From: a virus
Length of the DNA: 21,146 nt
Reading direction: 5' to 3' (one strand)
Virus record (IMG/VR): IMGVR_UViG_3300044822_000033
Span: 1 to 21,146 of that record
Shown: positions 1 to 21,146 of the stretch, piece after piece
Layout: the number at the start of each line of letters is the position of its first letter
Position numbering within the stretch: the stretch's first letter is position 1
The notes under the pieces: generated by a model
The model's input: only the letters and a program-made list of their open reading frames with translations
Told to the model about the DNA's origin: nothing
Databases searched by the model: none
Program-made: the position numbers and the translations under genes

Positions 1-531
1 GTTCGCCGCCTGCGACTCGCCGCCACCGCAATCAAAGCTGGTCGTCGGTGTTGCGCCTCCGGTAACATACGCAAACGGCACACCTGTCGGAAGCGTGATC
101 GTCGAGCAAAAGCTACCAACAAACGGCCCGCACGTTGTCACCGTAGAAGAAGTTACGCCTGTTAGTCTGACAGAGTGCGCGGTAGACGCGAGTGGGGACC
201 CCGCCGCATTATAAACAGGAGAGACGCCTCCCCCGGTAACAGGAACGGAGAACGTCGCGCCGTTGGCAAATACCATCGGTATCGAGCCGCCAAACGTCGC
301 TTCGCCTGTCGTGAGAGGGATGATCTGTGACGCATAGATGCCTGCCGATCCGATGTTCGTGTTGTCGATATTCGGGTTGTTTAAAAACGTGTAAAGCGTG
401 TTAAAGTCCGCATTGACCTGTGCGCTGTACGCGGGCGTGTCCGGCTCAAACGTATAAGGGACAGGCCCCGGCGTTGTTGCTGTCAAGCCAAAAATTGCGA
501 TAAGCGTAATAGCGTTTAAGGGAAGTTTCAT
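1..531 (-). CDS. Fibre-like appendage protein with signal-peptide-like N-terminus (partial)
   Basis: The reading frame is open from an ATG at 529-531 to the left window edge, giving 177 codons with no stop, so the C-terminus is missing. A GAGG ribosome-binding site overlaps the stop of the preceding gene (TGAGG, 7 nt before the ATG). The first ~20 residues (MKLPLNAITLIAIFGLTATT) form a short charged and then hydrophobic segment like a Sec signal peptide. After it comes a stretch with VNADFNTLYTFLNNP and NTNIGSAGIYASQI, a pattern common at the N-termini of phage tail-fibre proteins. The rest is rich in Thr, Gly, Val and Pro with a few Cys, as in extended beta structures. I infer a tail fibre or receptor-contact protein. 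It is last in this stretch of the operon, after the hub protein, where fibre genes often sit. The signal-like start is unusual for a virion protein. Confidence 0.6.
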   Translation of the reverse strand, partial: MKLPLNAITLIAIFGLTATTPGPVPYTFEPDTPAYSAQVNADFNTLYTFLNNPNIDNTNIGSAGIYASQIIPLTTGEATFGGSIPMVFANGATFSVPVTGGGVSPVYNAAGSPLASTAHSVRLTGVTSSTVTTCGPFVGSFCSTITLPTGVPFAYVTGGATPTTSFDCGGGESQAAN

Positions 532-537
532 ACTGCC

Positions 538-2247
538 TCAGTTCTTTGGCATCTGAGAATAGCGCCCGGTAAAGCCCATGCACCGATATGTACCGTAAGG
601 CAGATTGCCAGGAGACGGTGTTTCCGTGTCGATTTCGGCTCCCTGCTCGGTAAGAATATCCATGCCTGTTTGCGTTTGAATTGGCGTAGGAGGCGGATTT
701 GGATTTGGACACACGATTCCAAATGCAAACGCCTCGGCTTGAATGTTCACGTCGATGCGCGTCTTTGAGTAGCCTGCGCCAATAGACGCCCAATCAAACT
801 GATCCCAACTCGAACTGTCCCATTCTGCGTTCGCGTTGTACGCAAGCGGGATTTCTTGAACGAGTGTCGTCTGTCCGTAGTCCGTGACGATCTGCACGGC
901 TCCATTAAACTGATAGAAGAACACTTCCATCAGGATTCGCAGGACGCGCTTCTCGCTACCGGGATCGCCAATCTTGAAAAACTTAGAAAGCCATGTGCTT
1001 GAGATGCTTTGCCCGTTGTCCGTTGCGTTGAAAGAACTTTCGCCGACTAAGTAAACGTCAAAGTTATAGGTGTTGCCTGTTGTCTGATCGACCATGACAA
1101 AGACTTCGGGCGTCGGATCGCCGGGAGCGTTAATCAAGCAGCCTGCGCCAAAGCCAATCGCGCTTGAATAGATCGTCCAACCTTGGCGATCTAAGTCCCA
1201 AACAAGCGCCGTGTTTAGCTTTGTGTTGCCGCTGTTCGTCGGGTTTGAGATATACCAAAAGTAAATGCGCCTGTTCCAATACATGGCCCAGGATTGCATA
1301 CGGTCGCCGTTCATGGGGTAGTCGATCTCAGTTGGATCGTTGAGAATCCACGGACGAACTTTGCGACTGATCTCTTGGAACGAGTTGCCGTCGTAACGAT
1401 AGATGGCAAAGTTACCGATAAAGTATAAGATGCCGTCAACTGTTATCATGGCGCGTCCACCGATCACGCCGTCATTCATGGGAATGTCTTGTTCGATAAA
1501 GCTAACAGGCGTGAAGCCGGACAGGAGCGCGATGCCCGAAACAAGGCCCACGACAAGGGCCGCTTGCAGACCGATGCCGAGCGTGCCGAGTCCCGTAACA
1601 GGCGTTGATAAGGCGAATGTGTTATACGCAGGCGTAGACTCGGGCTGGCCTATCCCCGACGCCGCGACGAGATTCGGCTGACCCGGTAGACCCGCGAACC
1701 ACAATATATTATTGAGGAGCTTGCACCAGCGAGCGCCCGTGACCGTCGTCGGAGTAGCATCGAGGTTATAAAGTGTCGTGCCGTCGTAGGCAAACGGGCC
1801 TCCAGAACTGCCGACGCAGATAACAAGTATGTCTGTTCCGCCGTTGTGGCTCGGATCAAAGATGCGTTCGCACGACATAGGCAGCGCGCCGACGCCAAGC
1901 TGTCCGACCGAGCCGATTACATAGCCCGTCGTTTGATCGTAAAGCGTCGAGCCGACCTGTTGGATCGTCTGTCGAAACGTCGAGATAGCACCGCCTGCGA
2001 TCTCTTGATAGAATCTATAAATGCCACGCGAGCCCGCGGGCGTGTTCGCCGGAAACGATGCACCTGTTAAATTGACGCCGCGGCGGGATAACACATCGCC
2101 CTCGGTCGAGAGATAGACGTTGACAGCCTGCGACAAGTCGTTGTCGGCCAGCTTCTGCGGCGAATCTTGAATGTTGATGCCGCCGCCGAAGTCATACTGC
2201 GAGAAGTCGAACAGCTTGCGGCCTGTTTTGATTGGCGCTGTTTTCAT
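538..2247 (-). CDS. Probable tail hub / stabilisation protein (beta-propeller-like)
   Basis: This 569-aa protein starts at ATG 2245-2247, 1 nt after the stop of the adaptor-like gene. Its N-terminus has the layout seen in many podophage tail-tube or stabilisation proteins: a short basic leader, FGGGIN at residues 20-25, ADNDLSQAVNV near 34-44 and LSRRG at 53-57. The remainder has repeated short beta-strand segments with Trp/Tyr-rich turns (for example WAMYWNRRIYFWY and NTALVWDLDRQGW), consistent with a propeller or beta-solenoid-like fold. The C-terminus is Pro-rich. In podophages such proteins form the nozzle below the portal and adaptor. The pairing with the neighbouring adaptor-like gene supports this, but the family match is from memory of pattern, not a search. 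No signal peptide is seen, unlike the appendage genes transcribed before it. Confidence 0.55.
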   Translation of the reverse strand: MKTAPIKTGRKLFDFSQYDFGGGINIQDSPQKLADNDLSQAVNVYLSTEGDVLSRRGVNLTGASFPANTPAGSRGIYRFYQEIAGGAISTFRQTIQQVGSTLYDQTTGYVIGSVGQLGVGALPMSCERIFDPSHNGGTDILVICVGSSGGPFAYDGTTLYNLDATPTTVTGARWCKLLNNILWFAGLPGQPNLVAASGIGQPESTPAYNTFALSTPVTGLGTLGIGLQAALVVGLVSGIALLSGFTPVSFIEQDIPMNDGVIGGRAMITVDGILYFIGNFAIYRYDGNSFQEISRKVRPWILNDPTEIDYPMNGDRMQSWAMYWNRRIYFWYISNPTNSGNTKLNTALVWDLDRQGWTIYSSAIGFGAGCLINAPGDPTPEVFVMVDQTTGNTYNFDVYLVGESSFNATDNGQSISSTWLSKFFKIGDPGSEKRVLRILMEVFFYQFNGAVQIVTDYGQTTLVQEIPLAYNANAEWDSSSWDQFDWASIGAGYSKTRIDVNIQAEAFAFGIVCPNPNPPPTPIQTQTGMDILTEQGAEIDTETPSPGNLPYGTYRCMGFTGRYSQMPKN

Positions 2248-2248
2248 G

Positions 2249-3247
2249 CTAACGCATCCACGGAGCGATCACGCTCTCGTTTGCGGTTACGTCTCGCACG
2301 GTATTGGTCCCACGCTTGCGGGTACGGCGCTTGACTTTGAGGCTGTTCTTCTCCATCGCGGCTTCAAACATCTTAAAGAAGCGATCAGCGGTGCCGTAAT
2401 CTTCACGGTTCTCGCACGCCTGAGAACAGGCGTAAAGGATCACGGCCTCTTGCCAAAGCGAATCTAAGTCGGTAAAACTTGTCGCGCTGGCGACGTTGCC
2501 AGGGCCTACGACATATATGGCGGGTCGCTTGTAATAATGAAAGTTGAATTGTCCGGCGTTGGCGAAAGGGTAGAACTGTACCAACATGATTCCGCTAGAA
2601 TCTTGGACAAGCGAATAGATCGTAGGGATTCCGCCGATACCGCCAGCCGGACTCGCATCCGTCTCTTGAATAAAACTGTCATAGTCAAGCTGAACAAGCT
2701 CATACACAACTGTCCCACCAACAGCAGGATTGCCCGTCGAAAAGTTCGCATCACGCACCCTCTCGAAGTCTAGTGGCAGAGCAAGCATATTGGTGTTCGG
2801 CGCGACGACCAAAAGGCTTTGCATCGCGACAACAGGTTCTATATCTGCTGATACGGCTTCGATGCCGTCGTTCAGCATGGCGACAATATCTAAATCAGCA
2901 GGCTCTCCAAAGTTTAAGTTGGTGCGCCTTCTCACGGTTGCGACGGCCTGTGCGGCCGACCTGCCTGTTTGAACAGTCGTGATAGGCGTGTATGTTAAAA
3001 CAGGAACGTAACAGGCGTTAAGCAGCGAGTCTGTTACGCTAACTAAGCCCGAGATCGGGAACGTCGCCGTATTTGTAACCGTGACGGTTACGCCGTCTGT
3101 TCCAAGAGTTGCGCTGAGAAACGGCGTGTTGGTCGTGATCGTGAACGGATCAAGCGTCTCGGGCACGTCAAGGCTGTTCCCGACAGTAAACGTCGAAGAA
3201 GTGCCGTTGGCTTGAACGAGATTCTGAACGCTCGCGATCAGGGCCAT
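2249..3247 (-). CDS. Probable head-tail adaptor / neck protein
   Basis: This 332-aa protein starts at an ATG (3245-3247) that overlaps the previous stop as TAATG. Residues 1-90 are a Thr/Val-rich beta domain resembling an Ig-like or cell-adhesion module. From about residue 95 the pattern changes: an Arg-rich helix (VRRRTN), then LNDGIEAVSADIEPV near 125-139, a beta-rich middle with VQFYPFANAG near 223-232, YYKRP near 238-242, and a final helical part LWQEAVILYACSQACENREDYGTADRFFKMFEAAM. That sequence of an N-terminal helix, a Y/FP turn in a hairpin and a C-terminal helix ending in a bulky-residue repeat is typical of phage head-tail adaptor proteins that bind below the portal. The extra N-terminal beta domain is unusual. 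The two C-terminal Cys are not in an obvious metal site. Confidence 0.5.
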   Translation of the reverse strand: MALIASVQNLVQANGTSSTFTVGNSLDVPETLDPFTITTNTPFLSATLGTDGVTVTVTNTATFPISGLVSVTDSLLNACYVPVLTYTPITTVQTGRSAAQAVATVRRRTNLNFGEPADLDIVAMLNDGIEAVSADIEPVVAMQSLLVVAPNTNMLALPLDFERVRDANFSTGNPAVGGTVVYELVQLDYDSFIQETDASPAGGIGGIPTIYSLVQDSSGIMLVQFYPFANAGQFNFHYYKRPAIYVVGPGNVASATSFTDLDSLWQEAVILYACSQACENREDYGTADRFFKMFEAAMEKNSLKVKRRTRKRGTNTVRDVTANESVIAPWMR

Positions 3248-3807: not shown

Positions 3808-3808
3808 A

Positions 3809-4831
3809 TCAGTACCCAAACACGTCGAAGTACGGCTCACTTGCCGTTGTTGCTAAAGAAGAAGTTCCAAGCGTATCAAGAATCCAATTATAAGTAGACG
3901 GGTGCGATGAGAAGTACGAAAAGCCGTGAAGCGCAGGAAAGTTCGCCTGTGCGTTAGTGGCAAGATCGGCAAAGTATTGCGCCTGTGTCCACGGAGCGAT
4001 GTTGTTATTTACCTCGCCTGTTTCGTCCAAGATCATCGGCTTGCCCTGACCGGGAAACGTCTTGCCTGTTCCTGGTTCGATGTATGTATAAAACGGCGTG
4101 ATCGTCTGAACAAGCCCGATGCTGCCCGAGCCTATCGGGTCGCCTTTGTCATATACGTCAAAGCCAATCCAATCGACATACTGCAAAGGCGGTAGCCACA
4201 GGAACAGGTCGTGGGCTGCAACGTCTTGATAGCTGCCGTTTGGGCACCAAACAAAAGCGACGTTCGTTACGCCGTCTGCTTGAAAGCGATTCCAGATATG
4301 TTCCCATGCGGCGACAAACTCGGCACCGTTTTGCGCGTCGGTATTACCCGCAGCGAAGCAGCCGGGGTTGTCTCCATTCGCGCACTTTGAAGCTGTCAGG
4401 CAAAGATTAAACTCGTGAAAGAACCGCAACCCAACAGGTACTTTGAGTTGGCTCAAAGCGAACGCGGCATTATCAATATAAGTGTCGTAGGTGCCGTTTG
4501 TGTAATTCGTAAGCGGCCCGCCGCACGTCCACGAAAACCACGGCATACGCTCGTGCGTGAGATCACCGAGAACAGTTGGATCGGAAAAGACATGGGCATA
4601 GGTAATTGGAGACTTTGAGTTCAAGCCGTAGTAGTGAAGCTGAAACGCATAGTTGCGGCCGATAGCTGTTTCGACTGCTTCGGTGTCGCCTTCTTTTTGA
4701 GACGGTGACGCCGACTTACCTTGCGTGTTGTTAAAGCCCCCGATGAACATATACGGTGTTGACGGCTTCGGGTTCGGGTACGCCTGCGTGATCCCGAACA
4801 GTTGAGCGAGAAACAAGATCGCAACTAGCAT
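3809..4831 (-). CDS. GH26-like secreted endoglycanase
   Basis: With the start at ATG 4829-4831 the protein has 340 aa and a textbook signal peptide (MLVAILFLAQLFGITQA, cleavage expected before YPNP). This start overlaps the stop of the previous gene by 7 nt; a start at 4867 would bury the signal behind a polar leader. The mature part reads as a beta/alpha-barrel hydrolase of the GH26 type. GLRFFHEFN around 134-142 carries the candidate acid/base E140, VAFVWCPN is at 191-198, YVDWIGFDVYD at 218-228, and KPMILDETGE at 264-273 carries the candidate nucleophile E270. GH26 enzymes cleave mannans and related beta-glycans with retention of configuration; the substrate here is unknown. Several Cys (103, 144, 150, 158, 196) fit an exported protein. 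The neighbouring gene encodes a GH16 domain. Confidence 0.75.
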   Translation of the reverse strand: MLVAILFLAQLFGITQAYPNPKPSTPYMFIGGFNNTQGKSASPSQKEGDTEAVETAIGRNYAFQLHYYGLNSKSPITYAHVFSDPTVLGDLTHERMPWFSWTCGGPLTNYTNGTYDTYIDNAAFALSQLKVPVGLRFFHEFNLCLTASKCANGDNPGCFAAGNTDAQNGAEFVAAWEHIWNRFQADGVTNVAFVWCPNGSYQDVAAHDLFLWLPPLQYVDWIGFDVYDKGDPIGSGSIGLVQTITPFYTYIEPGTGKTFPGQGKPMILDETGEVNNNIAPWTQAQYFADLATNAQANFPALHGFSYFSSHPSTYNWILDTLGTSSLATTASEPYFDVFGY

Positions 4832-7800
4832 CCGACCATACCATGAAGCAGAGACGCAGGGATACACGGAGGAGCCGTTGCCGTTGCGGCAGGGATAAAC
4901 ACGAGATACGCAGAGGCGTTACCGCCGTTACCCGAAAACGTGTAAAGCGGATTGTTCATAATCGGCTGCGAGTTCGCTAAGTAGGCATCTTGCAAGATGT
5001 TTTCCACTTGCAGATTGCCTTGCGAGTTGTTCCCGTTACCTGTTGCTACGTTGAGGTTCGACTCTAACGTGTTTGTTGTAAGCGCGCCTGTTAGACTATC
5101 AACAATGCTCGTCAGCGTGGGGGTTGTCGTGCCGGGATTGAAGCTGCCTTCGATGACGAGCGTCAGGCCGTTCTGCGACGGAATCGTAAGCGGAACACTC
5201 GGCGTTCCTGTTGAACTTGTATAATAAGCGTTATAGCTTAACGGGCTAACAACCCACGGAGTACCTGCTCGGGTAAACTCATAGATATGAACGAGCCCGC
5301 CAAAGCCGCCTGAGTTGGTTGCGCCGACCGGGTAGTTAAACGACCACGAGTTTGCGACCGGGCATTGACCGCCGCCTGAGCCGACGACGCAGTAGTAGAT
5401 GCCGAGCGTACTTGTGCCTGCGTCAATCAGCGCCGTCCAATTTGTCGAAGGCTTCGCAAAGCTGTTGCCGGGCGATCCGTTCACGATGCCGAGCAGCATC
5501 TGTCCCGACGTGGAGTTTGCGCCCCCCGACAAGCCGCACGTTAAGCTGCCGCTTGAGCCCGAGCTATTGCAATCAGACGCAGACTGTGCGCTGATCGACG
5601 GCGCAACAGCCGGGGGGGCTGTCGGCGGCGCAGTCGGAACAGGCGTCGGACTTGGCGGCGGCGGCACTCCAAACGGCGGTCCGCAAACTGTCGTGCTTGG
5701 CGCATAGTGACGATAATACTGTTCGATCATCACAAGCGGCGATGCCGTTGGGTTGACACCCGGCGCGCAGTACGAGCCCCACCAACAGGACTGTTGCACC
5801 ATGATTGGCGACACGCCGGGAAACGACGGGTTGTTCGCAGCGGGCACTTGGTTAAGCGGAAACAACGTCTGCGGCTGATTGTTGTGCATGAGCCACACGT
5901 TGGTCGGTGTCGAGACTTCAGACCATGTACCCGGCACCATCGCTATCGTGCTGTCGTTAAAAGTATAATACTGTGCGAGCGCGGGAGACGTTGGGCCGGG
6001 GTTTGGTGCCTCGCCGCCTGCGGCTTCGCCTTGAAGCGTTTGACGGCCGATGCCTGCGCCGAAAATCGTCGAGAACACCTCGAACGTGTCCATTTCGTAG
6101 TAGTCGTTATTCGCGGGACCACAACCGCCCGACTCGCAGAGCGTCCAATCCGAAGGCCAATCGCCTTGAAAATTGCTACTGCCGTCCGGCACTTGCACGG
6201 TGCCATACACCCAATAGCCATACTCATAGGCGTTGTTTACGTTGCCGTCCATAAGCCCGCCTAAGTTGTGCAGGCAGTACGCAACGCTAAAGCACGTCTG
6301 AGATGCTACGTCAGCAGGTGTAGCACTCATAATTTGGCCGAGCGGGTGAGATGCACCGAAGCCAGGAGAGATCGTAACAGTTGTGCCCGAAACAGCCGTG
6401 ATCGTCGGGTTAAGATTATCGTAGTTTGAGCCCGAAAACGACACGACTTGTCCAGCAGCAAGACCTGTTGCCGACGTAACAGTTAACGTTGAAGGGCCAA
6501 AGACAACCGTCTGCGTTCCGCCGTTGGGGTTGTCGATGTAGCTCGTTGCGAACCCGGTTCCCGAAAGCGTGATCGTGGTGCCCGAAATCGCCGTAACCTT
6601 CGGGTAATTCGTGTCGTATTGATACTGATGAACGCAGCCCATCTGTGCTACGCATTGAATCGAGGCGTACTCTCCGACCGAGATGCCCGTGTTACTGCTT
6701 ACGATAAGCGTCGTCGAACCTGCGGTGTAGTTTGCCGCGAGCGTCGGGGTTGCAACGGTGTATGCAGCCGAGAGCGTCGGATGATACAGTCCGGTGTTAT
6801 ACTCACGAAGAATAACACCGACGCCAGGATCAAGCTGAATCGTTGACGGATACGCGGCTGCGCCATACTCCGCTTGCCACGTTGCGATTTGCGCGAACGA
6901 CGGGTACTTTGAATCGTCTACTCCGGCAAGCCCGCCGTTACTGCGGCCGAAGCTATACTGATTGCTCCACGTTGTTTGATTGCCTGTTGATATGGCAGGC
7001 GGGCTCGCAGCCGGATAGTTGTCGGAGATGTTTAAATCGCTTGGAACAGGTGACGCGGTATTCAACGCAAGGTCTTGGTTGAACTCGTCGTCGCTGACTA
7101 AGTTGTAAACAAGCCCGGTGCCGTCGATCTGCCCGATGCAGAGCGCCGTTGCGTTGGGCTGCGGCGTCGGCGTTGCGGCCGGGGAGGGCGGGGGACTCGG
7201 CGGCGGGCTCGTCGAGACGGGGATCGGATAGGGCGTTGCATCGACGATGCCTGCCGAGTCCGCGATACCCTGCGCGCACCGATCATAGCCGTTCGGCACC
7301 GAACCCTGCGCTGAACAGTTGAGCCACACGCCTGCGAAGTTCGGCGGGACGTTCTCAAGCAGGGTGTCGATCTGCCCCTGCGTTGCTTCGGTGCCACCTG
7401 TTAAGACTTGTCCGACGCCCAGAAAGATTTGCAGGTTGGTGTTGTAGGCCATGATCTTCGCAAGCTGCGGTTCCCAAACGTTCTGCCAGCTTGAAAGCGA
7501 TGCACCTCCGGTTTGGGATTGCGCGTCCCACATTCCTGGAACATTCGTAACCCAATACGGGCTCGTGCCGTAGAGAACAGAAAGCTGGCCTGAATCAGAT
7601 TGACTGATCCCGGCTGTTGATTGAAAATTATCGGACGGATAGGTTGCCTCAAGCTGTTGGGGAAACGCCCAATAATACCAACCCGGCACGCTGTTATCGC
7701 CGCCTGGAACCGCATTTTCGTTCGGGTTCGTCTGCGGGATCGTGCTTGTCTCGTTGTCGTATTGAACGGCAACAAACGGAGCAAGCCAAGGCGTCGGCAT

Positions 7801-8793
7801 TGTCTGACTTGATTGATAAAGAAAATCGGGGTTATACGTCGTAAAGCGGATGAGATAGGTAATCGGCCCGGTGAACAGGCTAGAGGGCGGCGTACATTCG
7901 ATGCCATGCCCGACAGAGTACGGTTGGTTCTGCCAGGGGTTTTCGTTGACGACGATAAGCGGATTAGTGTGATACAGCGCCGCAAGCGCGTTTGCGGCCA
8001 TCGTCGAAGTGATGTTGCCGCCGGGATTCGCGAGCGATCCGTTCGGGCCTGAGCCGCATACGAAGTCAATGCCAAGCATATAACGCAGCGTCGTAACCGC
8101 TTGTCCGGCAGGGTTATCGTACCAGCCGAGCGCGTGAACAATCGTCGGCGCTGCCGTATTAAAGTTGATCTGCGCGCTCGTTCCGCCTGGAGGAGCCGTC
8201 GCGCTCTCGTACTGTTCTTCGCCAAAGACCGTATTGTTTCTATACGCCTGTTCCGTCCAGCCGCTTTGATTGCAGGTGCCGACACCTCCCGTGCAACGGT
8301 TCAAGGTCGCAGTTTCAAACAGTCCCTCACCAACTGAGCCGCTATAACTCGGCAGGCCAAGAGAAACCGAAGGACTTAAAACCGATCCGGCAGGTGTTGC
8401 CATCGTGCAAGGCGAGCCTGTTGTAAACGGATTCGACGTGTTCATGCCCGACCGCTCGCCAAGAAACAGCGTGCCACCTGAAGCACCGCTCCACGTCATC
8501 GTTCCGTAATTTGGGTTCTCGCCTGATCCTGCAACGTGATACCAAAGATAACCGCCGCTTGTCGGATTAGAACAGGCGAGTGTAAACCCTGACGGTCCAT
8601 TCGGCGTTGTCGCAGCGCCAAAGATGCCGCCAAGAACCATCACGTCGCCTGCTAAAGGCGTTTGAGCAGCGACGACAGTCTTGCTTGTCGTGCTGGAGCC
8701 AAACGTCTGAATTGAGTCTGTTCCGACAACACCGATAGCATCACAAGCTGCAAAGAACAGAAGGACGCTAAAAAGTGCCTGATGAAGTTTCAC
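4825..8793 (-). CDS. Giant modular secreted glycoside hydrolase with GH16 domain
   Basis: This 1322-aa protein starts at a GTG placed directly after the previous stop (TAAGTG). Residues 1-19 are a signal peptide; AAC near 15-17 might even be a lipobox. Residues ~25-230 are a beta-sandwich (GDVMVLGGIFG, WYHVAGSGE). About 232-525 is an unrecognised, possibly TIM-barrel-like domain (LIVVNENPW, VPGMWDAQS). A Pro/Ser/Thr linker (526-548) follows. From ~565 to 1035 is a GH16 domain: SDDEFNQD, then AYEYGYWVYGTVQVPDG at ~855-871, GDWPSDW at 877-883, and the ExDxxE signature EMDTFE with E900, D902 and E905. Two tandem beta repeats (685-812) are inserted in this domain. A second Pro-rich linker (1043-1063) leads to a C-terminal beta-sandwich like the N-terminal one. 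GH16 enzymes cleave beta-1,3/1,4-glucans or galactans. I infer an exported or virion-displayed depolymerase. Confidence 0.8.
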   Translation of the reverse strand: MKLHQALFSVLLFFAACDAIGVVGTDSIQTFGSSTTSKTVVAAQTPLAGDVMVLGGIFGAATTPNGPSGFTLACSNPTSGGYLWYHVAGSGENPNYGTMTWSGASGGTLFLGERSGMNTSNPFTTGSPCTMATPAGSVLSPSVSLGLPSYSGSVGEGLFETATLNRCTGGVGTCNQSGWTEQAYRNNTVFGEEQYESATAPPGGTSAQINFNTAAPTIVHALGWYDNPAGQAVTTLRYMLGIDFVCGSGPNGSLANPGGNITSTMAANALAALYHTNPLIVVNENPWQNQPYSVGHGIECTPPSSLFTGPITYLIRFTTYNPDFLYQSSQTMPTPWLAPFVAVQYDNETSTIPQTNPNENAVPGGDNSVPGWYYWAFPQQLEATYPSDNFQSTAGISQSDSGQLSVLYGTSPYWVTNVPGMWDAQSQTGGASLSSWQNVWEPQLAKIMAYNTNLQIFLGVGQVLTGGTEATQGQIDTLLENVPPNFAGVWLNCSAQGSVPNGYDRCAQGIADSAGIVDATPYPIPVSTSPPPSPPPSPAATPTPQPNATALCIGQIDGTGLVYNLVSDDEFNQDLALNTASPVPSDLNISDNYPAASPPAISTGNQTTWSNQYSFGRSNGGLAGVDDSKYPSFAQIATWQAEYGAAAYPSTIQLDPGVGVILREYNTGLYHPTLSAAYTVATPTLAANYTAGSTTLIVSSNTGISVGEYASIQCVAQMGCVHQYQYDTNYPKVTAISGTTITLSGTGFATSYIDNPNGGTQTVVFGPSTLTVTSATGLAAGQVVSFSGSNYDNLNPTITAVSGTTVTISPGFGASHPLGQIMSATPADVASQTCFSVAYCLHNLGGLMDGNVNNAYEYGYWVYGTVQVPDGSSNFQGDWPSDWTLCESGGCGPANNDYYEMDTFEVFSTIFGAGIGRQTLQGEAAGGEAPNPGPTSPALAQYYTFNDSTIAMVPGTWSEVSTPTNVWLMHNNQPQTLFPLNQVPAANNPSFPGVSPIMVQQSCWWGSYCAPGVNPTASPLVMIEQYYRHYAPSTTVCGPPFGVPPPPSPTPVPTAPPTAPPAVAPSISAQSASDCNSSGSSGSLTCGLSGGANSTSGQMLLGIVNGSPGNSFAKPSTNWTALIDAGTSTLGIYYCVVGSGGGQCPVANSWSFNYPVGATNSGGFGGLVHIYEFTRAGTPWVVSPLSYNAYYTSSTGTPSVPLTIPSQNGLTLVIEGSFNPGTTTPTLTSIVDSLTGALTTNTLESNLNVATGNGNNSQGNLQVENILQDAYLANSQPIMNNPLYTFSGNGGNASAYLVFIPAATATAPPCIPASLLHGMVGC
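6358..6741 (-). repeat. Tandem beta-module repeats inside the GH16 domain
   Basis: Residues about 685-750 and 759-812 of the 1322-aa protein follow the same plan: a start like GSTTLIVSS or GPSTLTVTS, then a Gly-containing turn with SVGEYASIQ or AAGQVVSFS, then VTAISGTTITLSGTGF or ITAVSGTTVTISPGF. This is an imperfect protein-level repeat of roughly 55-65 residues. It interrupts the GH16 jelly roll between its first strands and the strand with the YEYGYW motif, so it looks like an inserted binding or spacer module. Confidence 0.7.
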
Positions 8794-13278: not shown

Positions 13279-13284
13279 GTCTTA

Positions 13285-13289
13285 CTCCT
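13285..13289 (-). promoter_or_regulatory. Strong ribosome-binding site for the 64-aa gene
   Basis: The mRNA-strand sequence AGGAG lies 6 nt before the ATG at 13276-13278 and shares bases with the TAG stop of the capsid gene. Translation of the small gene is therefore likely tied to that of the capsid protein. Confidence 0.75.
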
Positions 13290-14313
13290 AGAGGTTCGAG
13301 ATCGAATTGACGTTGAACAGCGCGCCGCCCGTGCGGCATTGGCTAGAGGCGTACTGAAAGCACGTCACATAGCGGGAGACTTTGCCGACACGATTCGGCA
13401 GATCGACCCACGGGAAGAACTCGAAGCCCTTTTCGCCCATGTAGTAGAACTTGGTGTGCCGACGATTGGTGAAGTAGAAGTTGCAGCCGATCTTCGTGCC
13501 GTTGGTCGGCGGGGTGAAATGCTCGTCTGCGAGGATCGGCGTGTTGAAGATGTTGGCCCCGCCCATGCCCGCGTTCGCCATGTCCATCGGAGCAACACGC
13601 TGTTGCGACTGTTGAGCGTACATATACGCCGACACGCCGCCTTTGATCGTGAAGCACTCGGTCGGCGTCTCGACACCTTGGGTCGAACGGGTGAACACGT
13701 CGTAGAACAAGGCAAACGGCGCATCGTTCGCGGCTGTTCCGATCCCCGAGCTAAGCAACGTGCGATTGCAGTTACCCTGCCAATTCGCGAACGCGCCAGC
13801 ACCTGTTCTCAGAATGTTGCCGTAGAGGTTGATGACGGTGCCATCGTCGGTCGCTTCGACAAGGCCGAGGGCGTTGATGCCGTTCTCGGTCGCCTGCGAC
13901 TTCGTGACGTTGCACAAGTCCTCGCCGCACACATCGGCAAGGGACGCGATCCCGGCTTGAATCTGCACCGCGACGAGTTTGACGCGGGCGTTCCGGCCTC
14001 GGTTGATCTTGAGCGTCTGATAATCGACGGCTACGCTGACAACGTAGAACGGCCACGGATACGATGCCGTCGAGAGAATGGTTTGCGGCGACGAACTGAT
14101 TTCGTCGTTCTGACCAAACGCAGTTGCGGTTTGGTTCTTGCCCGTCAGAAGATCGACGTTGAGAGTACGACCTTCTTCGACCTGTTCCGCCTCGTCCCAA
14201 TTCGTCTGAAACACGAGGTTCGAGACGAACACGTTGTCGTCTACGCTGCGCTTGAACGTTTCGGCCATCGAACCCGATAGCTGGTCGTATGCAGCGTTGT
14301 AACTGATTGCCAA
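13288..14313 (-). CDS. Major capsid protein
   Basis: This 341-aa protein is assigned by sequence style and position directly after a scaffold-like gene. The N-terminus reads AISYNAAYDQLSGSMAETFK, followed by FQTNWDEAEQVEEGRTLNVDL, NDEISSSPQTILSTASYPWP, a YVVSVAVDYQTLKINRGRNAR segment, a long helix (VKLVAVQIQAGIASLADVCGEDLCN) and LVEATDDGTVINLYGNI. This order (extended arm, then a strand with an N-x-G turn, then a spine-like helix and a small-residue domain) is typical of HK97-fold capsid proteins of podo- and siphophages. The start is a TTG at 14311-14313 with GTGAGG 7 nt upstream; no ATG exists until codon 16. A rare start for the most abundant virion protein is unusual. No protease gene was seen, so maturation cleavage may not occur. 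Confidence 0.75.
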   Translation of the reverse strand: MAISYNAAYDQLSGSMAETFKRSVDDNVFVSNLVFQTNWDEAEQVEEGRTLNVDLLTGKNQTATAFGQNDEISSSPQTILSTASYPWPFYVVSVAVDYQTLKINRGRNARVKLVAVQIQAGIASLADVCGEDLCNVTKSQATENGINALGLVEATDDGTVINLYGNILRTGAGAFANWQGNCNRTLLSSGIGTAANDAPFALFYDVFTRSTQGVETPTECFTIKGGVSAYMYAQQSQQRVAPMDMANAGMGGANIFNTPILADEHFTPPTNGTKIGCNFYFTNRRHTKFYYMGEKGFEFFPWVDLPNRVGKVSRYVTCFQYASSQCRTGGALFNVNSISNL

Positions 14314-14320
14314 GACACTA

Positions 14321-14326: not shown

Positions 14327-14423
14327 GGAAAGCAAGATTTGAACTGCTCTGCTACGTTTGGTGTGTCTAGCTTCGTGGTGAGGGCCTTACGGCTTGTCTC
14401 TGAAGTCTAGGACCCTATTGGAT

Positions 14424-14461: not shown

Positions 14462-14486
14462 AATCTCATCGTACCACGCTTGTCAA

Positions 14487-15839
14487 CTAGACGGCGTTCG
14501 GGTGGGCCTTCATGTACGCGGCGATCTCGGTCGGGGTCAGCGCCCGCTTCTGTTGCGTCCGCTTGTCCACGATGTAGCGCGGGACACGCTCGCGCTTCGG
14601 CTTGATTTCCGGGGCTGAACCGGACGCGCCGCCCGAGGCGGTCTGCTGCCCGACGCTCGCAGCGGCCTGTGCGGCCAGCGCCTCGCCGTTACGGCGTATG
14701 TCGGCCATCGTCTGCGCCGCAACGGAGCCCGCCTGGGGAACAGGCTGTCCGATCCCTGCGAGGCCAAGCGGCGACCGTAGCGCCTGCGCGGCGAGCGCAT
14801 ACGTCGATGGCGACATTCCATAGCGTTGAACGAGCCCCGACGAGTTTGCGTACTCCATGACTCGGTGCCATTGTTCTTGAGGTGTGTTCTGATTGTATAC
14901 ATCAGGCATGACTTCCATAAGAAGCGCCCTGCTCGCAGCGCCGACTTGGCGCTCGTACTCGTATCTGCGGCGCTGTTGATCTTGCTGTTGTGCTGCCTGT
15001 TGTTGCTGCCTGTTGAAGTTATTAAGCTGAACTTCTTGGCGAGCCAACAATCTACTTGTGCCTGTTTGTGCTTTGATTAAGATTTCTCGCGTGTAGTCGT
15101 CTACGCTTCCGTCTTGAGGCAAGCTCTCCGCGTACTCTCTCTGAAGGCGTTGAAAGACAGCTTCTTCGTCCTGTTGAGCAACTTGTGGAGTCGGCGCAGT
15201 TGCGGCCCGCATGGCTTCCTGCTGTTGTACGACAAGCGGCAAACCAGCCATACGTCGCGCGTGTGCTTGGGCGACGAACTGCGCGAACTCCGGGTCACGC
15301 ATCCCGAGGTCGATGACGGGGGCAATATCGTCAAAGCGATTGTTCGCGATGATCGGCTCAAGAACAGCCCGGTGCTTCCCCATAAAGCCTGTCGTGCGAT
15401 CCATGACAGATCGACGGGAGTATCCGTTCTTGACTTTATCGGCATCAGGCTTTTTAGCTCTGACGACATACGTCTCTCCGGTGTCGCCGTCTTTGTATTC
15501 GACTTCGACAGCATCAGCCCACGGGTCCGGCTCTGTCGATGCGGGCTGTTGCGTTGTCTGAACAGGGGCTGCGGCGAGCGGCTGTTCGCCCTGAGCGCCT
15601 GTCGTGCTGGCCTGTTGAGCCGCAGGCGCAGCTTTGGCCGGATCGACTCCTGGCGGCGCTACGTCGTCGTCGTCATAGCCGTACTCGGGCTCTGCCGCTT
15701 GGGTCGGCGCGTCGGCTGTTGACGGAGCTAAAACTTCGGTGTCATCGACACCAGGATCGGCGGGCATCGTGGCGAGCGCCGCCGCAAGCACATCGGCCGA
15801 TCCGGGAAGCCCGGTCTTAGGCTTGGTTCGCGTGTCCAT
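14487..15839 (-). CDS. Scaffold-like capsid assembly protein
   Basis: I choose ATG 15837-15839 (450 aa) because an AGGAGA site lies just upstream; a start at 15899 would add an unsupported leader. The N-terminal half is acidic and low-complexity, with Ala/Pro/Gln/Thr runs, a DDDD patch (YGYDDDDVAPP) and DPWADAVEVEYKDGDTGETYVV. The middle contains helical, coiled-coil-like sequence with Gln-rich tracts (NRQQQQAAQQQDQQRRRYEYE). The C-terminus is basic (KPKRERVPRYIVDKRTQQKR). A disordered acidic start, helical middle and basic end next to the capsid gene is the usual scaffold layout: the basic tail contacts the capsid protein. Scaffolds are diverse in sequence, so the call rests on composition and position between portal and capsid genes. 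Confidence 0.65.
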   Translation of the reverse strand: MDTRTKPKTGLPGSADVLAAALATMPADPGVDDTEVLAPSTADAPTQAAEPEYGYDDDDVAPPGVDPAKAAPAAQQASTTGAQGEQPLAAAPVQTTQQPASTEPDPWADAVEVEYKDGDTGETYVVRAKKPDADKVKNGYSRRSVMDRTTGFMGKHRAVLEPIIANNRFDDIAPVIDLGMRDPEFAQFVAQAHARRMAGLPLVVQQQEAMRAATAPTPQVAQQDEEAVFQRLQREYAESLPQDGSVDDYTREILIKAQTGTSRLLARQEVQLNNFNRQQQQAAQQQDQQRRRYEYERQVGAASRALLMEVMPDVYNQNTPQEQWHRVMEYANSSGLVQRYGMSPSTYALAAQALRSPLGLAGIGQPVPQAGSVAAQTMADIRRNGEALAAQAAASVGQQTASGGASGSAPEIKPKRERVPRYIVDKRTQQKRALTPTEIAAYMKAHPNAV

Positions 15840-15843
15840 ATCT

Positions 15844-15849
15844 TCTCCT
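15844..15849 (-). promoter_or_regulatory. Ribosome-binding site of the scaffold gene, containing an AACAGG copy
   Basis: The mRNA strand reads AACAGGAGAAGAT before ATG 15837-15839, so a near-consensus AGGAGA site overlaps one copy of the dispersed AACAGG motif. It decides the start of the scaffold gene. Confidence 0.75.
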
Positions 15850-15915
15850 GTTGGAACGGGAAAAGGGCTCCGCGCATGAGCGTCACGGAACCCTTCCACG
15901 ATCAGAACGGGCTAC

Positions 15916-16493: not shown

Positions 16494-16831
16494 TATTCAG
16501 CCTCCCCCGCTTCGTCGTCATCTTCTTCGTGAGGGTAGGGCTCAACGTCCTCTGACCCGGTTTCGGTTGCGAACATCGTAGAGGCGCAGTACGCCTGTCC
16601 TGTTGCGAGGACGCCCATGATGGCGTACCACTCGGAATCGACGCCGTAGCTTTGCACGACGTACTTCTCGCCCTCGTCGCCCTCGGGCGGCTCGATCAGT
16701 ACGAGAACAGCCTTCGCGTCGGGCCGCAGGTTCGCAACCTCGGCCATCAGGCGGCTGTGATCCGAGTCATGCGTAATCATGCCCGTCGTCGGGTCCTCGT
16801 ATTGAATGTCGTCGTTCGTATCAACGTCCAC
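16493..16831 (-). CDS. Acidic hypothetical protein, 112 aa
   Basis: The start is a GTG at 16829-16831, inside the end of the 78-aa gene (11-nt overlap), with a GGAG site about 10 nt upstream. The product is acidic at both ends (MDVDTNDDIQYEDPTTG and YPHEEDDDEAGEAE). In the middle is a compact domain with NLRPDAKAVLVLIEPPEGDEGEKYVVQSYG and a C-terminal helix containing YAIMGVLATGQAYCAS. No recognised motif. Being between portal and scaffold genes suggests a role in head assembly, but that is inference. Confidence 0.6.
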   Translation of the reverse strand: MDVDTNDDIQYEDPTTGMITHDSDHSRLMAEVANLRPDAKAVLVLIEPPEGDEGEKYVVQSYGVDSEWYAIMGVLATGQAYCASTMFATETGSEDVEPYPHEEDDDEAGEAE

Positions 16832-17057
16832 GCTTGGCTTTCTCCTTTGGCTTGTTCTTAGCTCTGTAGGTTAAGTCTCTCAAAATTAAAATCATTTCTT
16901 CTACGTCAGCGATTCCGCCAAACACCACAGTAACAGTACCGCGATCAGAAAAAACAATATCATGTCGGCTGTCTCGGGCAAACGTCAAGTAGACGCACGG
17001 ATCACCCGGTAGTGCCGCCTTTGGTTGGGGTTGTTGCTCGGGCTGATCTTCCGCCAT
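16821..17057 (-). CDS. Small protein overlapping the portal gene end, 78 aa
   Basis: ATG 17055-17057 has AAGGAA just upstream and lies inside the portal gene, so the two share 56 nt in different frames. The product begins with a Gln/Pro-rich segment (MAEDQPEQQPQPK), continues with a beta-rich core (DPCVYLTFARDSRHDIVFSD, VTVVFGGIADVEEMILIL) and ends in a very basic tail (RAKNKPKEKAKRGR). Function unknown. The long overlap for such compact DNA suggests coupling to portal translation. Confidence 0.6.
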   Translation of the reverse strand: MAEDQPEQQPQPKAALPGDPCVYLTFARDSRHDIVFSDRGTVTVVFGGIADVEEMILILRDLTYRAKNKPKEKAKRGR

Positions 17058-19101
17058 TTCCTTTTGCTTTCTTTTTCTGCTTCCCGCCAGGAGGCGATAA
17101 CGCAGGAATCAGCCATTGAAGTTGCGGGTTACTCCGCTCTTGTTGTAAACGCTTGAGAACACGAGTCGCGCTGTCAATCAAGCCGACTTCTTCAAGGTTG
17201 CGTAACAGTTCGGGTATGTCGAACGCGGGCGTATTGATAAGCTGTAGCGCGTAATTCAAACGGGCAGATGGGCTTGTCGGAAGCATCGAGCCAGCCTTCA
17301 CCGTCATGTGCATATTGCCTGTCAGCCGCGTTCCGATAAAGGCAACGTGACGCTCGACACCAGCATCGTCTTTGTAGTGAATCAAGCGTTCTCTTGTATA
17401 GAACTGCCCGACGAGTCCCCGGAACTGTTGTCCGATCTCTACGATGCATTGTTCCACCATTCGCATAGAAGGCCGAATCGAGATGTTCGCAGCCTCTTGA
17501 TACATCGAGACTGTCTCGGCCGCCTGTTGACCTTTGAACTTGCCGCCTGTCGCCGTCTCGGTGAGGCCGCTAAGCTCGCGAATCTGCGAAATAATAAACT
17601 GTATAAAGTTGATGACATACGCAGGCATGTCTGGCCCGCGCTCGCGCTTGCCAAGCTTAAGGCTCATGGGGTCCTCGCGCAAGATGGCCCCCGGCGCGTT
17701 CGTAATATCTTCGTCGGCAACGTCGCTGTTGAGCGGCATACGCCAAATGGGGTTGGCGGTTAAATGCGCCGCGTCGAACACCATGCTGACGATGCGATTC
17801 AAACAGTCTTGCAGGCTAGAGATTCTGTCGATGCTCGAACGGGGATAGTAGCGCGTTGCGGGACGCTCGGGCAGCGGCGCATAGGGAAAGCGTCCGTGAG
17901 CAAACGGGTTGCACCCGTCGTCTGCGATCACGCTTCCAACAGCGATCATGCGCCTGCCTGTTGGGTACAGCGGAACTTTCTTCGTTATGTGGACGGCTTC
18001 GAGGGCATCTTCGGAATGAAGTACCCGTAAGCCGCCGAACTGTTCTGCGAACTGAAGGACCATAACTGTTGATAACGGCAGTTCGTATACGATATGGTTA
18101 GAAAGAATAACGGTCTGTAGAGGCTCACGGTGTCCATCGGCAAACTCCAGAAACTTCGGGCGCGTAACAACTTCGCCTGCGACGGTGAACTTGATCTCGT
18201 CTACTTCAGTTTGGTATTGCGGCCCACGCGGACGAGTCCAGACTTCACGGATAAGACAGCGTTTCCCGTCTCGTTCAAAGTTACCACGGCTATCCGGCGC
18301 AGAGTAGGGGGCAGTATGTTGAGTGACGCCTTCGGGATCGGTGTAGCTTTGGGCGGGCTGGACTTTGGTATCACCGCCCGCGCTGTTGGAGTTTTCGCCT
18401 TGCTCATCTTCGTCCTCGGTGTCATAGCCCGAAAATATGTCTCGGTTGCCTTTTAGCTTCGGGTACTTTTCAATAACAAGGCCAACAGGTTCGGTGTATT
18501 CTTCAAGAAAGATTTCCGCGTCAAGCGGGCTCGTCGCTTCTTTATTGGCGTAGCACGAAATGCCGTCAACGCACTTGGCGGTGATAGCGCCGCGTCCGGC
18601 ATCAGCAATCGGATCGTAGCCAAGCTTAATATAACCGATCTTACGGATGACGGCGATCTTCGACGTAATCTCGATCTTGTTTTGAATCTGCGCGGTTTCC
18701 CACCACTCACTCCAAGCGGCGCTCAGAATCTCGGCTTGATAAGCGTCCTCGCGTTTGGGAGTGGTGTACGTCGCTTTCGGCCTATTATCAGCCATGATGG
18801 CGCTTTTGGTGTCTGCGACCCAGGCGACGTAATTAACAACGCCCGAAAGCTTCCAGGGGGCTCGCCTGTTGGAGCCAAACGTCTCCCATTGCTTATCTTC
18901 GTAGAGAGACATATTGCGGCGCATCTCTTGCGTGACGATGCTACGCTCGTTAGAAAGTGTATTGCGGACGGCATCAAGCCATTCAACGCGCTTGTCACGC
19001 GGCTTCCGCAGGGCGTCGTTGCCCATGTAGTCACGCTGACGATCCCCTGAGAGTCCTCCTGAGATGAACGACCCCGGTTGGGGAAACGAAGTCCTACCCA
19101 C
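17002..19101 (-). CDS. Portal protein
   Basis: At 699 aa with the GTG start (19099-19101), this is in the size range of large podophage portals, which form the dodecameric DNA gate at one capsid vertex. Supporting signs: an N-terminal helical region with WLDAVRNTLSNERS and NMSLYEDKQWETFGSNRRAPW, then VVNYVAWVADTKSAIMADNRPKATY, a clip-type beta region (YEMD-free, CVDGISCYANKEA), a central part with PYAPLPERPATRYYPRSSIDRI and SLQDCLNRIVSMVFDAA, and a long helix with ELSGLTETATGGKFKGQQAAETVSMYQEAA. The motif of N-R-x-W/F substrate-like helices followed by SGLTE..TG..QQAAE is shared by many portals. An ATG at 19024-19026 is an alternative start 25 codons in. It follows terminase genes, as usual. 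Confidence 0.8.
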   Translation of the reverse strand: MGRTSFPQPGSFISGGLSGDRQRDYMGNDALRKPRDKRVEWLDAVRNTLSNERSIVTQEMRRNMSLYEDKQWETFGSNRRAPWKLSGVVNYVAWVADTKSAIMADNRPKATYTTPKREDAYQAEILSAAWSEWWETAQIQNKIEITSKIAVIRKIGYIKLGYDPIADAGRGAITAKCVDGISCYANKEATSPLDAEIFLEEYTEPVGLVIEKYPKLKGNRDIFSGYDTEDEDEQGENSNSAGGDTKVQPAQSYTDPEGVTQHTAPYSAPDSRGNFERDGKRCLIREVWTRPRGPQYQTEVDEIKFTVAGEVVTRPKFLEFADGHREPLQTVILSNHIVYELPLSTVMVLQFAEQFGGLRVLHSEDALEAVHITKKVPLYPTGRRMIAVGSVIADDGCNPFAHGRFPYAPLPERPATRYYPRSSIDRISSLQDCLNRIVSMVFDAAHLTANPIWRMPLNSDVADEDITNAPGAILREDPMSLKLGKRERGPDMPAYVINFIQFIISQIRELSGLTETATGGKFKGQQAAETVSMYQEAANISIRPSMRMVEQCIVEIGQQFRGLVGQFYTRERLIHYKDDAGVERHVAFIGTRLTGNMHMTVKAGSMLPTSPSARLNYALQLINTPAFDIPELLRNLEEVGLIDSATRVLKRLQQERSNPQLQWLIPALSPPGGKQKKKAKGNGGRSARATTPTKGGTTG

Positions 19102-19207
19102 GCGACTTCTTGTTATCGTCGCACAAGAAAATGGGATCGACTTCGCGGTGCTTGAACTGTTGCACCAAACTCGAACGCAACAGCATCATCAACTTTTCAT
19201 AGTCCAT
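19094..19207 (-). CDS. Short ORF of 37 aa before the portal gene
   Basis: ATG 19205-19207 lies one base after the stop of the 254-aa gene, and the TAG at 19094-19096 overlaps the portal GTG start by 8 nt. The product (MDYEKLMMLLRSSLVQQFKH, then REVDPIFLCDDNKKSRG) has an amphipathic helix and a polar tail. The exact fit into the gap and the normal codon choice support it, but so short an ORF could also act only to couple translation. Confidence 0.45.
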   Translation of the reverse strand: MDYEKLMMLLRSSLVQQFKHREVDPIFLCDDNKKSRG

Positions 19208-19208
19208 G

Positions 19209-19973
19209 CTAGAGTTCTCCGATCTTTCTCGGGAGCTTCGCGTCGATCTTAGCAAGTTGCGTGTCGCGCCGCAAGTCACGCTCGGCCTGTTTGGCCTTCT
19301 TGATCTTTTCGACGTGAGCGAAGTAACCTTTATCAAACTGTTCGTAACCCTTGGTGGCGCGCTTGTATTCGGCACGACCGCCCGTGATCTCTTTACCGCC
19401 GCGTATCGTGCCGTCGTGGGTCATCCGCCCCTGCGCGTCGTAGGTCGGGTTGCCCTTGAGCGTCCGGCCCCCCCGGAACGCGGCCATCCCCGCCTTCGTC
19501 GGGTCGTGGTGCGCCACGTCGTTGCCTCGGATCGTCGGGTAAAAGCCGTTGTAGAGGGCGTCATCTTCGGGCGCGATGCTCAGCGACATGATGTGTGCGC
19601 GAATCTCGTCGCCTGTCATGCTGTCGAAATCAACGCCCTTGCGGGTTGAGTGATACGAAACGCGCCAGCCGCCGATAGGAATGTTGCCTGTTGACGTGAG
19701 CCGCAGGACTTCGGCTGTTGGAAGATGTTCAAGATTTAACGGGATCGGCGTCCAGCGTTCTTCGATACCGGGCCGGACCTCCCGCCGCCTGTCGGCGGGA
19801 ACAACTGCATCGGCTGGCATCGTGAACGCAACAGCCTCGCGCATCGTGTCGAACGCAAGTACGGCCCCAGGACTGACGACAACCGTACCTGTTTTGATAC
19901 GAGGAGGCGCTGCTCCCGGATCAGACATGATCTTATCGAGAGCGCCGCCCAAAGCCGCAACAAGCCGTCTCAC
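19209..19973 (-). CDS. Hypothetical protein, 254 aa
   Basis: I take the start as GTG 19971-19973, overlapping the previous TGA (GTGA); ATG 19926-19928 (MSDPGAAPP) is equally possible and neither has a good ribosome-binding site. The N-terminal third has beta strands with RIKTGTVVVSPGAVLAFDTM and a Pro/Arg-rich stretch. The middle has WRVSYHSTRKGVDFDSMTGDEI. The C-terminal ~80 residues are basic with repeated GGR/RGG turns and then a Lys/Arg/Glu helix (AHVEKIKKAKQAERDLRRDTQLAK). No enzymatic motif. It sits between terminase and portal genes; packaging or head assembly is a guess. Confidence 0.6.
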   Translation of the reverse strand: MRRLVAALGGALDKIMSDPGAAPPRIKTGTVVVSPGAVLAFDTMREAVAFTMPADAVVPADRRREVRPGIEERWTPIPLNLEHLPTAEVLRLTSTGNIPIGGWRVSYHSTRKGVDFDSMTGDEIRAHIMSLSIAPEDDALYNGFYPTIRGNDVAHHDPTKAGMAAFRGGRTLKGNPTYDAQGRMTHDGTIRGGKEITGGRAEYKRATKGYEQFDKGYFAHVEKIKKAKQAERDLRRDTQLAKIDAKLPRKIGEL

Positions 19974-20383
19974 CCGAAGATGCTTTCCATGCCCGCCTCT
20001 TTGAACATCAAAGCGGCTTCGAGTTCGGGCAGCTTCGCGAGAATATCAACTTGATTGATGATCGTGAACACCTGTCCTCCGAGGCCTTTGATCTCTCGGC
20101 CGGAAAACTTCTCGACCATAACGATCTCGTCGGGCTCGTAGGGCATCTTTACATGAACGTCAGACTCCATGCGATAGCCATCTCCGCCAGCAACGATGCG
20201 AGCAAGATAATAACCATCCCGTTGTTCAACTTCTTCAGGCGTTCCTTCGACGAGGATACGTTTTTCTCCAACGGAGTAAAAACGATCAACATGAATCTTT
20301 TCGACAATGTAGCGATCTCCATGCGGCACGATCAGCGCCGGGTTTAAGTTGTGAATCGCTTGCAGCGAAACAGTCGGTTTCAT
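19970..20383 (-). CDS. Hypothetical protein downstream of terminase, 137 aa
   Basis: ATG 20381-20383 overlaps the terminase TGA as ATGA. The protein is soluble and beta-rich with SLQAIHNLNPALIVPHGDRY, EKRILVEGTPEEVEQRDGYY, and a C-terminal helix DILAKLPELEAALMFKEAGM. The strands and Gly turns suggest a small barrel or OB-like domain, but I cannot name a family. Its place directly after the terminase suggests a part in packaging or head completion. Confidence 0.6.
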   Translation of the reverse strand: MKPTVSLQAIHNLNPALIVPHGDRYIVEKIHVDRFYSVGEKRILVEGTPEEVEQRDGYYLARIVAGGDGYRMESDVHVKMPYEPDEIVMVEKFSGREIKGLGGQVFTIINQVDILAKLPELEAALMFKEAGMESIFG

Positions 20384-21146
20384 AAATCCCTCAAGCTTGG
20401 CATATTGCGAGAAGTCGTGCCTGTCGTTTGCAGGCGTTGGTAAGAATACAGCGCGCCTTCGACCGCCTGTTGTTGTTGCTTCTTCGGGGGAACATACGGA
20501 CGCAGCGGGTCGCGGTCCAGCGCGAGGGCGATCATCAAGGCATCGGCCGCGTCGTCATGCGCCGATCCACGGCCTTTGATCCGTTCTTCGCCGGGGTAGC
20601 GTTTGAGCATCTTGAGTTGGTCGATTGTTCTCTTGTCGCGGAGGATTAGGTCGGGGCTCGGTCGCCCTTCAAACCTGTGAGCGATATACTCCATAAGTAG
20701 ACCCTCCATTTGCCCACGCGAATGTTGGTCTGTATACCAGCCGAGAAACTTAGTGTCCTCGGGCACTTCAACGTCGAGTCGCTTCCAACGATACTGATTC
20801 CGCGCTCCCATCGAAAACAACTCATAAACCAAGTTCTTACCAGGACCATTGGATTCGACTCCGAGATAGGCGTTGTTATAGTATCGGTAGAGGTTGTATA
20901 CCATTTCTCGTACACGATGCATGGGTGCCCGGCTCTCATATACTGCAACCTGTTTTCGATCTCTCCGACGAATAACACAGGCATAACTTTGGTCAGAGTC
21001 CGGTGACTCGAAACTCCATCCAAGGTCAACTCCAATAACATACTGTTCTCCTGGTGAGGACGGTGCCCAGAAGCGCATCTCGTCCCACGGGTACGGATTG
21101 TGAACAACATCCCAGGTTAGGGTCCCGTTCTTGACTCCACTTTCAA
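20380..21146 (-). CDS. Terminase large subunit, C-terminal nuclease part (partial)
   Basis: The frame is open to the right window edge, so the N-terminal ATPase half (Walker motifs) lies outside. About 254 residues remain. They carry the RNase H-like nuclease pattern of phage terminases: VIGVDLGWSFE with the first catalytic Asp, a middle acidic residue in LGVESNGPGKNLVYEL, and DDAADALMIALAL near the end with the last Asp. These acidic residues bind two metal ions and cut the concatemer during packaging. Upstream of the first motif, the residues TWDVVHNPYPWDEMRFWAP lead in from the edge. The Gln run (KKQQQQ) near the C-terminus and the loose tail are typical of the part that contacts the portal. 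This is the most upstream gene of the operon in this window. Confidence 0.85.
   Translation of the reverse strand, partial: ESGVKNGTLTWDVVHNPYPWDEMRFWAPSSPGEQYVIGVDLGWSFESPDSDQSYACVIRRRDRKQVAVYESRAPMHRVREMVYNLYRYYNNAYLGVESNGPGKNLVYELFSMGARNQYRWKRLDVEVPEDTKFLGWYTDQHSRGQMEGLLMEYIAHRFEGRPSPDLILRDKRTIDQLKMLKRYPGEERIKGRGSAHDDAADALMIALALDRDPLRPYVPPKKQQQQAVEGALYSYQRLQTTGTTSRNMPSLRDL

Follow-up and report, generated by a model that had tools for sequence, protein, structure and literature searches.

AACAGG, a non-palindromic DNA word enriched about sixfold beyond coding needs in a phage fragment nearly purged of restriction-type sites

Chi sequences differ between lineages, and that of E. coli, GCTGGTGG, is about 2.3-fold enriched in the chromosome of its own host. 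In phages without a recombinase, host Chi is over-represented with a median observed/expected ratio of 3.12, the median for phages with a recombinase but without a RecBCD inhibitor is 2.50, and Chi has been proposed as a protection from restriction via RecBCD (PMC3784561). Avoidance of restriction sites is also known in double-stranded DNA phages (PMC6286503). Selected oligonucleotides in phages have so far been mainly a matter of avoidance, or of 2–3x enrichment of a host Chi that was known beforehand. Here, we describe a linear 21,146-base fragment of an uncultured phage (IMG/VR record IMGVR_UViG_3300044822_000033, analyzed over its whole length and referred to below as the window), in which no signal is stronger than that of a previously unreported word, AACAGG (CCTGTT in the opposite orientation), and from which most restriction-type sites have been lost as well. 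A full-text search for the word in 5.39 million open-access papers, with subscription journals mostly outside it, gave no paper that, judged by title and abstract, describes AACAGG as a genomic signal in phages or bacteria.

The initial annotation of this DNA had counted about 74 copies of the word against about 10 expected, between positions 158 and 20954. The count is exactly 74, with the same limits (start of the first copy and end of the last) and a mean spacing of 285 bp, where 9.8 copies are expected from base composition, 7.6 from dinucleotides, and 13.3 from trinucleotides. Read on the plus strand, 47 copies are CCTGTT and 27 are AACAGG:

CCTGTT, exact word, plus strand: 158, 665, 1076, 1270, 1956, 2063, 2222, 2964, 3660, 4017, 4065, 5039, 5087, 5207, 6464, 6983, 7397, 8247, 8417, 8867, 9065, 9236, 9335, 10104
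CCTGTT, exact word, plus strand, continued: 10398, 10461, 11670, 13006, 13119, 13802, 14181, 14996, 15009, 15061, 15170, 15611, 15847, 16262, 16599, 17523, 17957, 18865, 19286, 19687, 19888, 20466, 20949
AACAGG, exact word, plus strand: 214, 238, 1504, 1597, 2425, 2831, 2999, 3010, 3397, 4203, 4433, 5638, 5784, 7045, 7874, 8571, 9832, 10250, 10562, 10574, 10999, 11758, 13186, 14739, 15561, 16365, 18484
2999..3015, plus strand: two like-oriented AACAGG copies at a distance of 11 bp
15847..15852, minus strand: AACAGG copy, possible ribosome-binding site AACAGGAGAAGATATG, provided that the ATG at 15837-15839 and not the GTG at 15899 is the start

Of 22 genes, 18 contain copies, which use all codon frames and form no tandem array within the window. 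Ten coordinates were checked overall, and the codon contexts given for them earlier were right at Thr-Gly (1076 and 2222), Pro-Val (1504 and 4433), Asn-Arg (15009), Gln-Ala (14996), Ser-Cys-Trp (5784), Cys (2425), and Leu-Phe (11758). The copy previously assigned to a ribosome-binding site does lie just upstream of an in-frame ATG, but its role is conditional on that ATG being the true start; the gene concerned (14487-15899, minus strand) may begin there, in which case its ribosome-binding site AGGAG would come from the AACAGG copy.

Codon nulls were built on 22 open reading frames covering 20.6 kb, with gene boundaries taken from our own reading of the open-reading-frame list. Permutation of synonymous codons that left proteins and codon usage unchanged gave 12.0 ± 3.2 copies and at most 21 in 500 runs, a synonymous shuffle within each gene gave 13.4, and a shuffle additionally keeping the dinucleotides at codon junctions gave 13.5, compared to the 74 observed. 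This amounts to an excess of about sixfold over what the proteins and their codon usage require, and it places AACAGG at rank 1 among all 2,080 hexamers. The hexamers with similar enrichment (ACAGGC, CAACAG, CTGTTC, and CAGGCG) all overlap AACAGG, and GCTTGA, with 30 occurrences against 10.7 expected, is the highest-ranked hexamer that is plainly unrelated. The excess, therefore, stands under both tests that had been suggested as able to overturn it, a codon-preserving shuffle and a search for unrelated hexamers of equal enrichment. The highest-order Markov expectation of 66 copies is no argument against the finding, since the sub-words AACAG and ACAGG are raised by the same signal. Choice is exercised at the level of codon pairs, as Pro-Val is spelled CCT GTT in 19 of 26 instances where about 1.6 would be expected, and 29 of 71 Thr-Gly pairs are spelled ACA GG with an A in front (the base before ACA-GG being A in 29, G in 12, and another in 2). 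When the window was divided into thirds of about 7 kb each, the word had z values of 13.3, 9.5, and 7.7 and ranks of 1, 1, and 2. With codon-pair choice, all codon frames, and both strands involved (5.6x and 8.3x), these results bear out the earlier proposal of a DNA-level word as opposed to a protein motif or codon bias, and show that AACAGG is selected as a DNA word in this phage. Because it is about six times more frequent than proteins and codon usage require, it is probably retained because some factor reads it as DNA.

With the codon null as background, the consensus of the dispersed set is 5′-AACAGGYG-3′, graded as AACAG-G-Y-G. Five strict bases, AACAG, are followed by three graded positions, with enrichments of G 6.3x, T 3.2x, C 2.5x, and A 1.8x at the first, C 6.7x, T 4.5x, A 2.0x, and G 1.4x at the second, and G 5.5x at the third, and positions beyond this octamer carry little information. 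The strongest octamer, AACAGGCG, occurs 21 times against 2.3 expected, and AACAGGTG 8 times against 0.5. On the coding strand, AACAGG is enriched 5.6x and CCTGTT 8.3x, the raw counts differing between strands because codon opportunity differs. Copies are spaced slightly more evenly than random (coefficient of variation of the gaps 0.80, P = 0.025), and the sites on the two strands recur at intervals of about 450 and 780 bp. A repressor or LexA-like operator was considered and rejected after paired half-sites at a fixed spacing were sought, as AACAG pairs had no preferred distance or orientation within the window.

The strength of this signal was compared with that of the best hexamer of any kind in 151 unrelated viral loci, each at least 7 kb long and shorter than the window, for which the median z was 5.2 and the maximum 12.0, compared to 17.7 for AACAGG. 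Even at a length of about 7 kb, the first two thirds of the window score 13.3 and 9.5. As a positive control, the cyanobacterial word HIP1 (GCGATCGC) in loci of about 8 kb gave z values of 10–14.5 by the same procedure, and the test therefore detects a known genome-wide word. The top words in T7 and SP6 reached about 2.2x or less under the same null. A scan of IMG/VR for clustered copies returned, besides the window, only repeat-protein phages and chance matches, and AACAGG had a codon-null z of at most 6.2 in every other locus found in this way.

Restriction-type sites have been almost eliminated from the same DNA, which has 76 palindromic hexamers compared to 329 under the codon null; 42 of the 64 are absent from the window. 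Among the depleted words, RCCGGY, ACTGG, CAGTG, and RGATCY do not occur at all where 43, 33, 26, and 17 copies are expected, GWGCWC (0/15) and RAATTY (0/14) are likewise missing, and RCATGY occurs once against 16 expected. Palindromes that are still tolerated include TCGCGA (12), GCGCGC (12), and CGGCCG (11). This is the avoidance known from double-stranded DNA phages (PMC6286503) in an extreme form, although that phenomenon concerns the depleted words and not AACAGG. We, therefore, built an avoidance null in which proteins and codon usage were kept while 382 depleted words were held near their observed level (302–353 occurrences, compared to 270 in the window and 1,731 after the plain shuffle). 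This null yielded 15–25 copies of AACAGG compared to the 74 observed, indicating that displacement from avoided words adds little and that the remainder is positive selection for AACAGG.

A host carrying the word was sought by clustered-copy scans of about 1,300 bacterial genomes from five phyla, requiring two copies in 297 Acidobacteriota and three copies in 201 Armatimonadota, 398 Pseudomonadota, 241 Verrucomicrobiota, and 179 Planctomycetota, as well as in 19 genomes (partly the same ones) of the order of the Acidobacteriota genome G292. By our estimate, a genome in which the word is as dense as in the phage would give about 20 dispersed three-copy matches, and none did; scans of this kind would miss a weak host enrichment such as that of E. 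coli Chi. High clustered counts were due to tandem repeats (for example, in G292, G703, G914, and G577), hairpin repeats, or repeat proteins. Two bacterial genomes, sampled over 280 kb and 100 kb, had AACAGG at only 1.2–1.4x the codon expectation. The suggestion in the initial annotation that the word is shared with the host was, thus, not borne out in the genomes scanned. G292 itself was rejected as the host, as its 157 clustered pairs, found together with the best portal match, are 21-bp tandem repeats, and 324 kb sampled from it held 117 copies against 111 expected. Many 21-bp tandem arrays, AACAGGCCSGTTGCAAAYGAA, occur in this genome on several contigs (loci L390 and L408 on C2 and C20). 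Matching by hexamer residuals gave a best correlation of r ~ 0.2–0.3, with well-sampled Acidobacteriota genomes, too weak to name a host. Among the GTDB matches listed, hairpin repeats of the form AACAGGC...GCCTGTT from Microcoleus and Tychonema loci (L243, L250, L258, L277, and others) dominate. In Chloracidobacterium sp. UBA7656 (G001), an inverted repeat, AACAGGC/GCCTGTT, has about 98 matches, most of them AACAGGCTGGCAGCCTGTT, and this genome (loci L377-L381) has a strong restriction-site avoidance of its own, with CAGCTC at 0/57, CGATCG at 3/55, CGGTCC at 0/43, and a palindrome ratio of 0.55.

The reading that we tentatively favor is that AACAGGYG is a Chi-like site read by a host helicase-nuclease of the RecBCD/AddAB type, which is the best of the options raised in the initial annotation, an uptake sequence or a HIP1-like signature being less likely. 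As is characteristic of Chi, AACAGG is an oriented, non-palindromic short word enriched in the DNA to be protected. It resembles Chi in phages (PMC3784561) in being dispersed in coding DNA, in its enrichment beyond codon needs, and in a plausible link to restriction, and differs from it in not being a known Chi and in its higher density and enrichment in the window. The octamer fits a site read on one strand, because it is non-palindromic, combines five strict with three graded bases, and has nothing outside them, while enrichment in both orientations suits linear DNA open to entry at both ends. A word that is oriented, short, graded, and present on both strands over the whole molecule, therefore, fits an enzyme moving along DNA, and Chi is favored because it would also explain why a heavily restricted phage carries AACAGGYG. 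Phage DNA cut during infection or replication, above all by restriction enzymes, would let the nuclease enter at an end and degrade until it read AACAGGYG correctly, at which point degradation would stop and recombination start. With a site every few hundred bases, loss would be limited and rescue possible, and the phage would be selected for many copies. We infer both RecBCD/AddAB as the reader and the effect of the site on it. Several observations weigh against a Chi-like site. The window contains structural genes only, with no recombination genes among them; no candidate host genome scanned has a strong AACAGG enrichment, a signal at the level of E. coli Chi (~ 2.3x) being one that would be missed; the density of 3.5 per kb, about sixfold over expectation, is well above the ratios reported for phage Chi; and AACAGGCG is unlike known Chi sequences, which vary by lineage anyway. 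If AACAGGYG is Chi-like, it would probably represent Chi in an uncultured lineage and would speak for Chi as an anti-restriction device.

The main alternative, possible but rather unlikely, is that AACAGGYG serves as a template site for replication proteins of the phage itself, the simplest candidate being a primase that recognizes a long sequence. The template would read 5′-CRCCTGTT-3′ (candidate single-stranded template sequence CGCCTGTT), the primer would begin with pppAACAGG, and both strands would need at least one site per Okazaki fragment; the sites found on both strands at about 450 and 780 bp agree with this, and enrichment in the host would be unnecessary. Sites of T7-type primases are similarly required on both strands at intervals, and the same null finds a mild excess of the sites preferred in T7 (TGGTC 1.49x, rank 11; GGGTC 1.36x), but at only ~ 1.4–1.5x they are far exceeded by AACAGG. 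Known primase sites are mostly 3–5 bases long, and the window is without a replication gene. Phage primases with longer sites do exist, that of NrS-1 using the eight-base 5′-TTTGGTTA-3′ (PMC8718748). At a similarly low probability, AACAGGYG may be, more broadly, the site of a phage-encoded DNA-processing protein, either a long-site primase or an end-protection or recombination factor, and, thus, a phage-private counterpart of Chi; a genome-wide synonymous-codon rewrite would then have occurred in the phage alone, having evolved alongside the near-complete loss of restriction sites.

We consider it unlikely that the phage has acquired a genome-wide signature of its host, comparable to an uptake sequence or HIP1. 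The strength and dispersion of the word do resemble those of HIP1 (CGATCG) in Microcoleus and Tychonema under the same test, and the DNA uptake sequences of Neisseria (DUS) and Haemophilus (USS) are likewise single oriented words with strong enrichment. However, a host of either kind would be expected to carry AACAGG at a similar density, and no genome with clustered dispersed copies or a matching load appeared among those scanned, which are a small share of GTDB. HIP1 is, moreover, a palindromic feature of host genomes, whereas AACAGG is non-palindromic and was found in a phage, and the window lacks the HIP1 core CGATCG altogether (0 against 11.7 expected). More doubtful still is a target of phage- or host-made DNA modification that protects the DNA or marks it as self. 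Non-palindromic hexamers of this shape are usual in methylation-based systems, and the phage faces strong restriction pressure. However, at sites recognized by restriction or defence systems, phages should show either avoidance or neutrality (PMC6286503), and a modified AACAGG would leave many other avoided sites uncovered. If the word serves as a primase or modification target, its length would be exceptional for such a site and its footprint would span the genome. A by-product of avoidance, in which shunning ACTGG, RCCGGY, and similar words leaves ACAGG and CCTGTT as the allowed spellings of Thr-Gly and Pro-Val, is very improbable: the complete absence of ACTGG and RCCGGY is in its favor, but avoidance raises AACAGG only from 12 to about 20 copies, far below 74, which largely refutes it, and neither the preference for A before ACAGG nor the enrichment of AACAG in other frames is explained. 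Artefacts of protein motifs, codon bias, or repeats do arise elsewhere, as viral contigs with clustered AACAGG (L132, L195, and L133) encode Thr-Gly-rich repeat proteins, and the codon null accounts for a large part of the excess there. In the window, where every synonymous null fails, copies are spread over most genes, and tandem arrays are absent, the probability of such an artefact is negligible, the codon- and protein-preserving shuffles having ruled it out.

The fragment derives from a tailed phage with its main genes all on the minus strand, including several long tail or surface proteins in addition to the following:

20380..21144, minus strand: terminase large subunit, C-terminal nuclease part (PHROG phrog_2, 4e-9; Pfam Terminase_6C, 2.6e-5)
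19970-20383, minus strand: GroES-like (Cpn10) protein beside the terminase gene (PF00166, 2.3e-5; phrog_3188, 0.001)
17002..19101, minus strand: portal protein, P22-like (phrog_156, 1.2e-31; PF16510, 1.2e-11)
13288..14313, minus strand: major capsid protein (phrog_9953, 9.3e-19)
2249..3247, minus strand: SU10-type head-tail adaptor (PF24175, 8.8e-15)

No close relative was found in IMG/VR, among GenBank phages, or in Acidobacteriota genomes. Searches of IMG/VR with the portal, capsid, terminase, tail, adaptor, and a third head-region protein gave one portal of 24% identity and nothing closer, and GenBank phages gave only portals of 22–28% identity, mostly from phages of Actinobacteria, and one Bradyrhizobium phage capsid of 22%. 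No tRNA or Rfam RNA was detected in the window. Several long proteins of the tail region (1-531, 4825-8793, 8794-9930, and 9935-11065, minus strand) appear to begin with Sec signal peptides, for example MNKLIYLVPLAIVAALLQTAHGQ and MNNKLHKIGGAVAIAAALLLACSQAGAQ; such N-termini are unusual for virion proteins, and those of the proteins that were tested gave no family match. The proteins of 3809-8793 (minus strand) gave no Pfam or PDB sequence match. By eye, they appear glycoside-hydrolase-like, with a GH26-like protein at 3809-4867, a GH16-like stretch within 4825-8793, and Pro/Thr linkers, and they are possible candidates for depolymerases.

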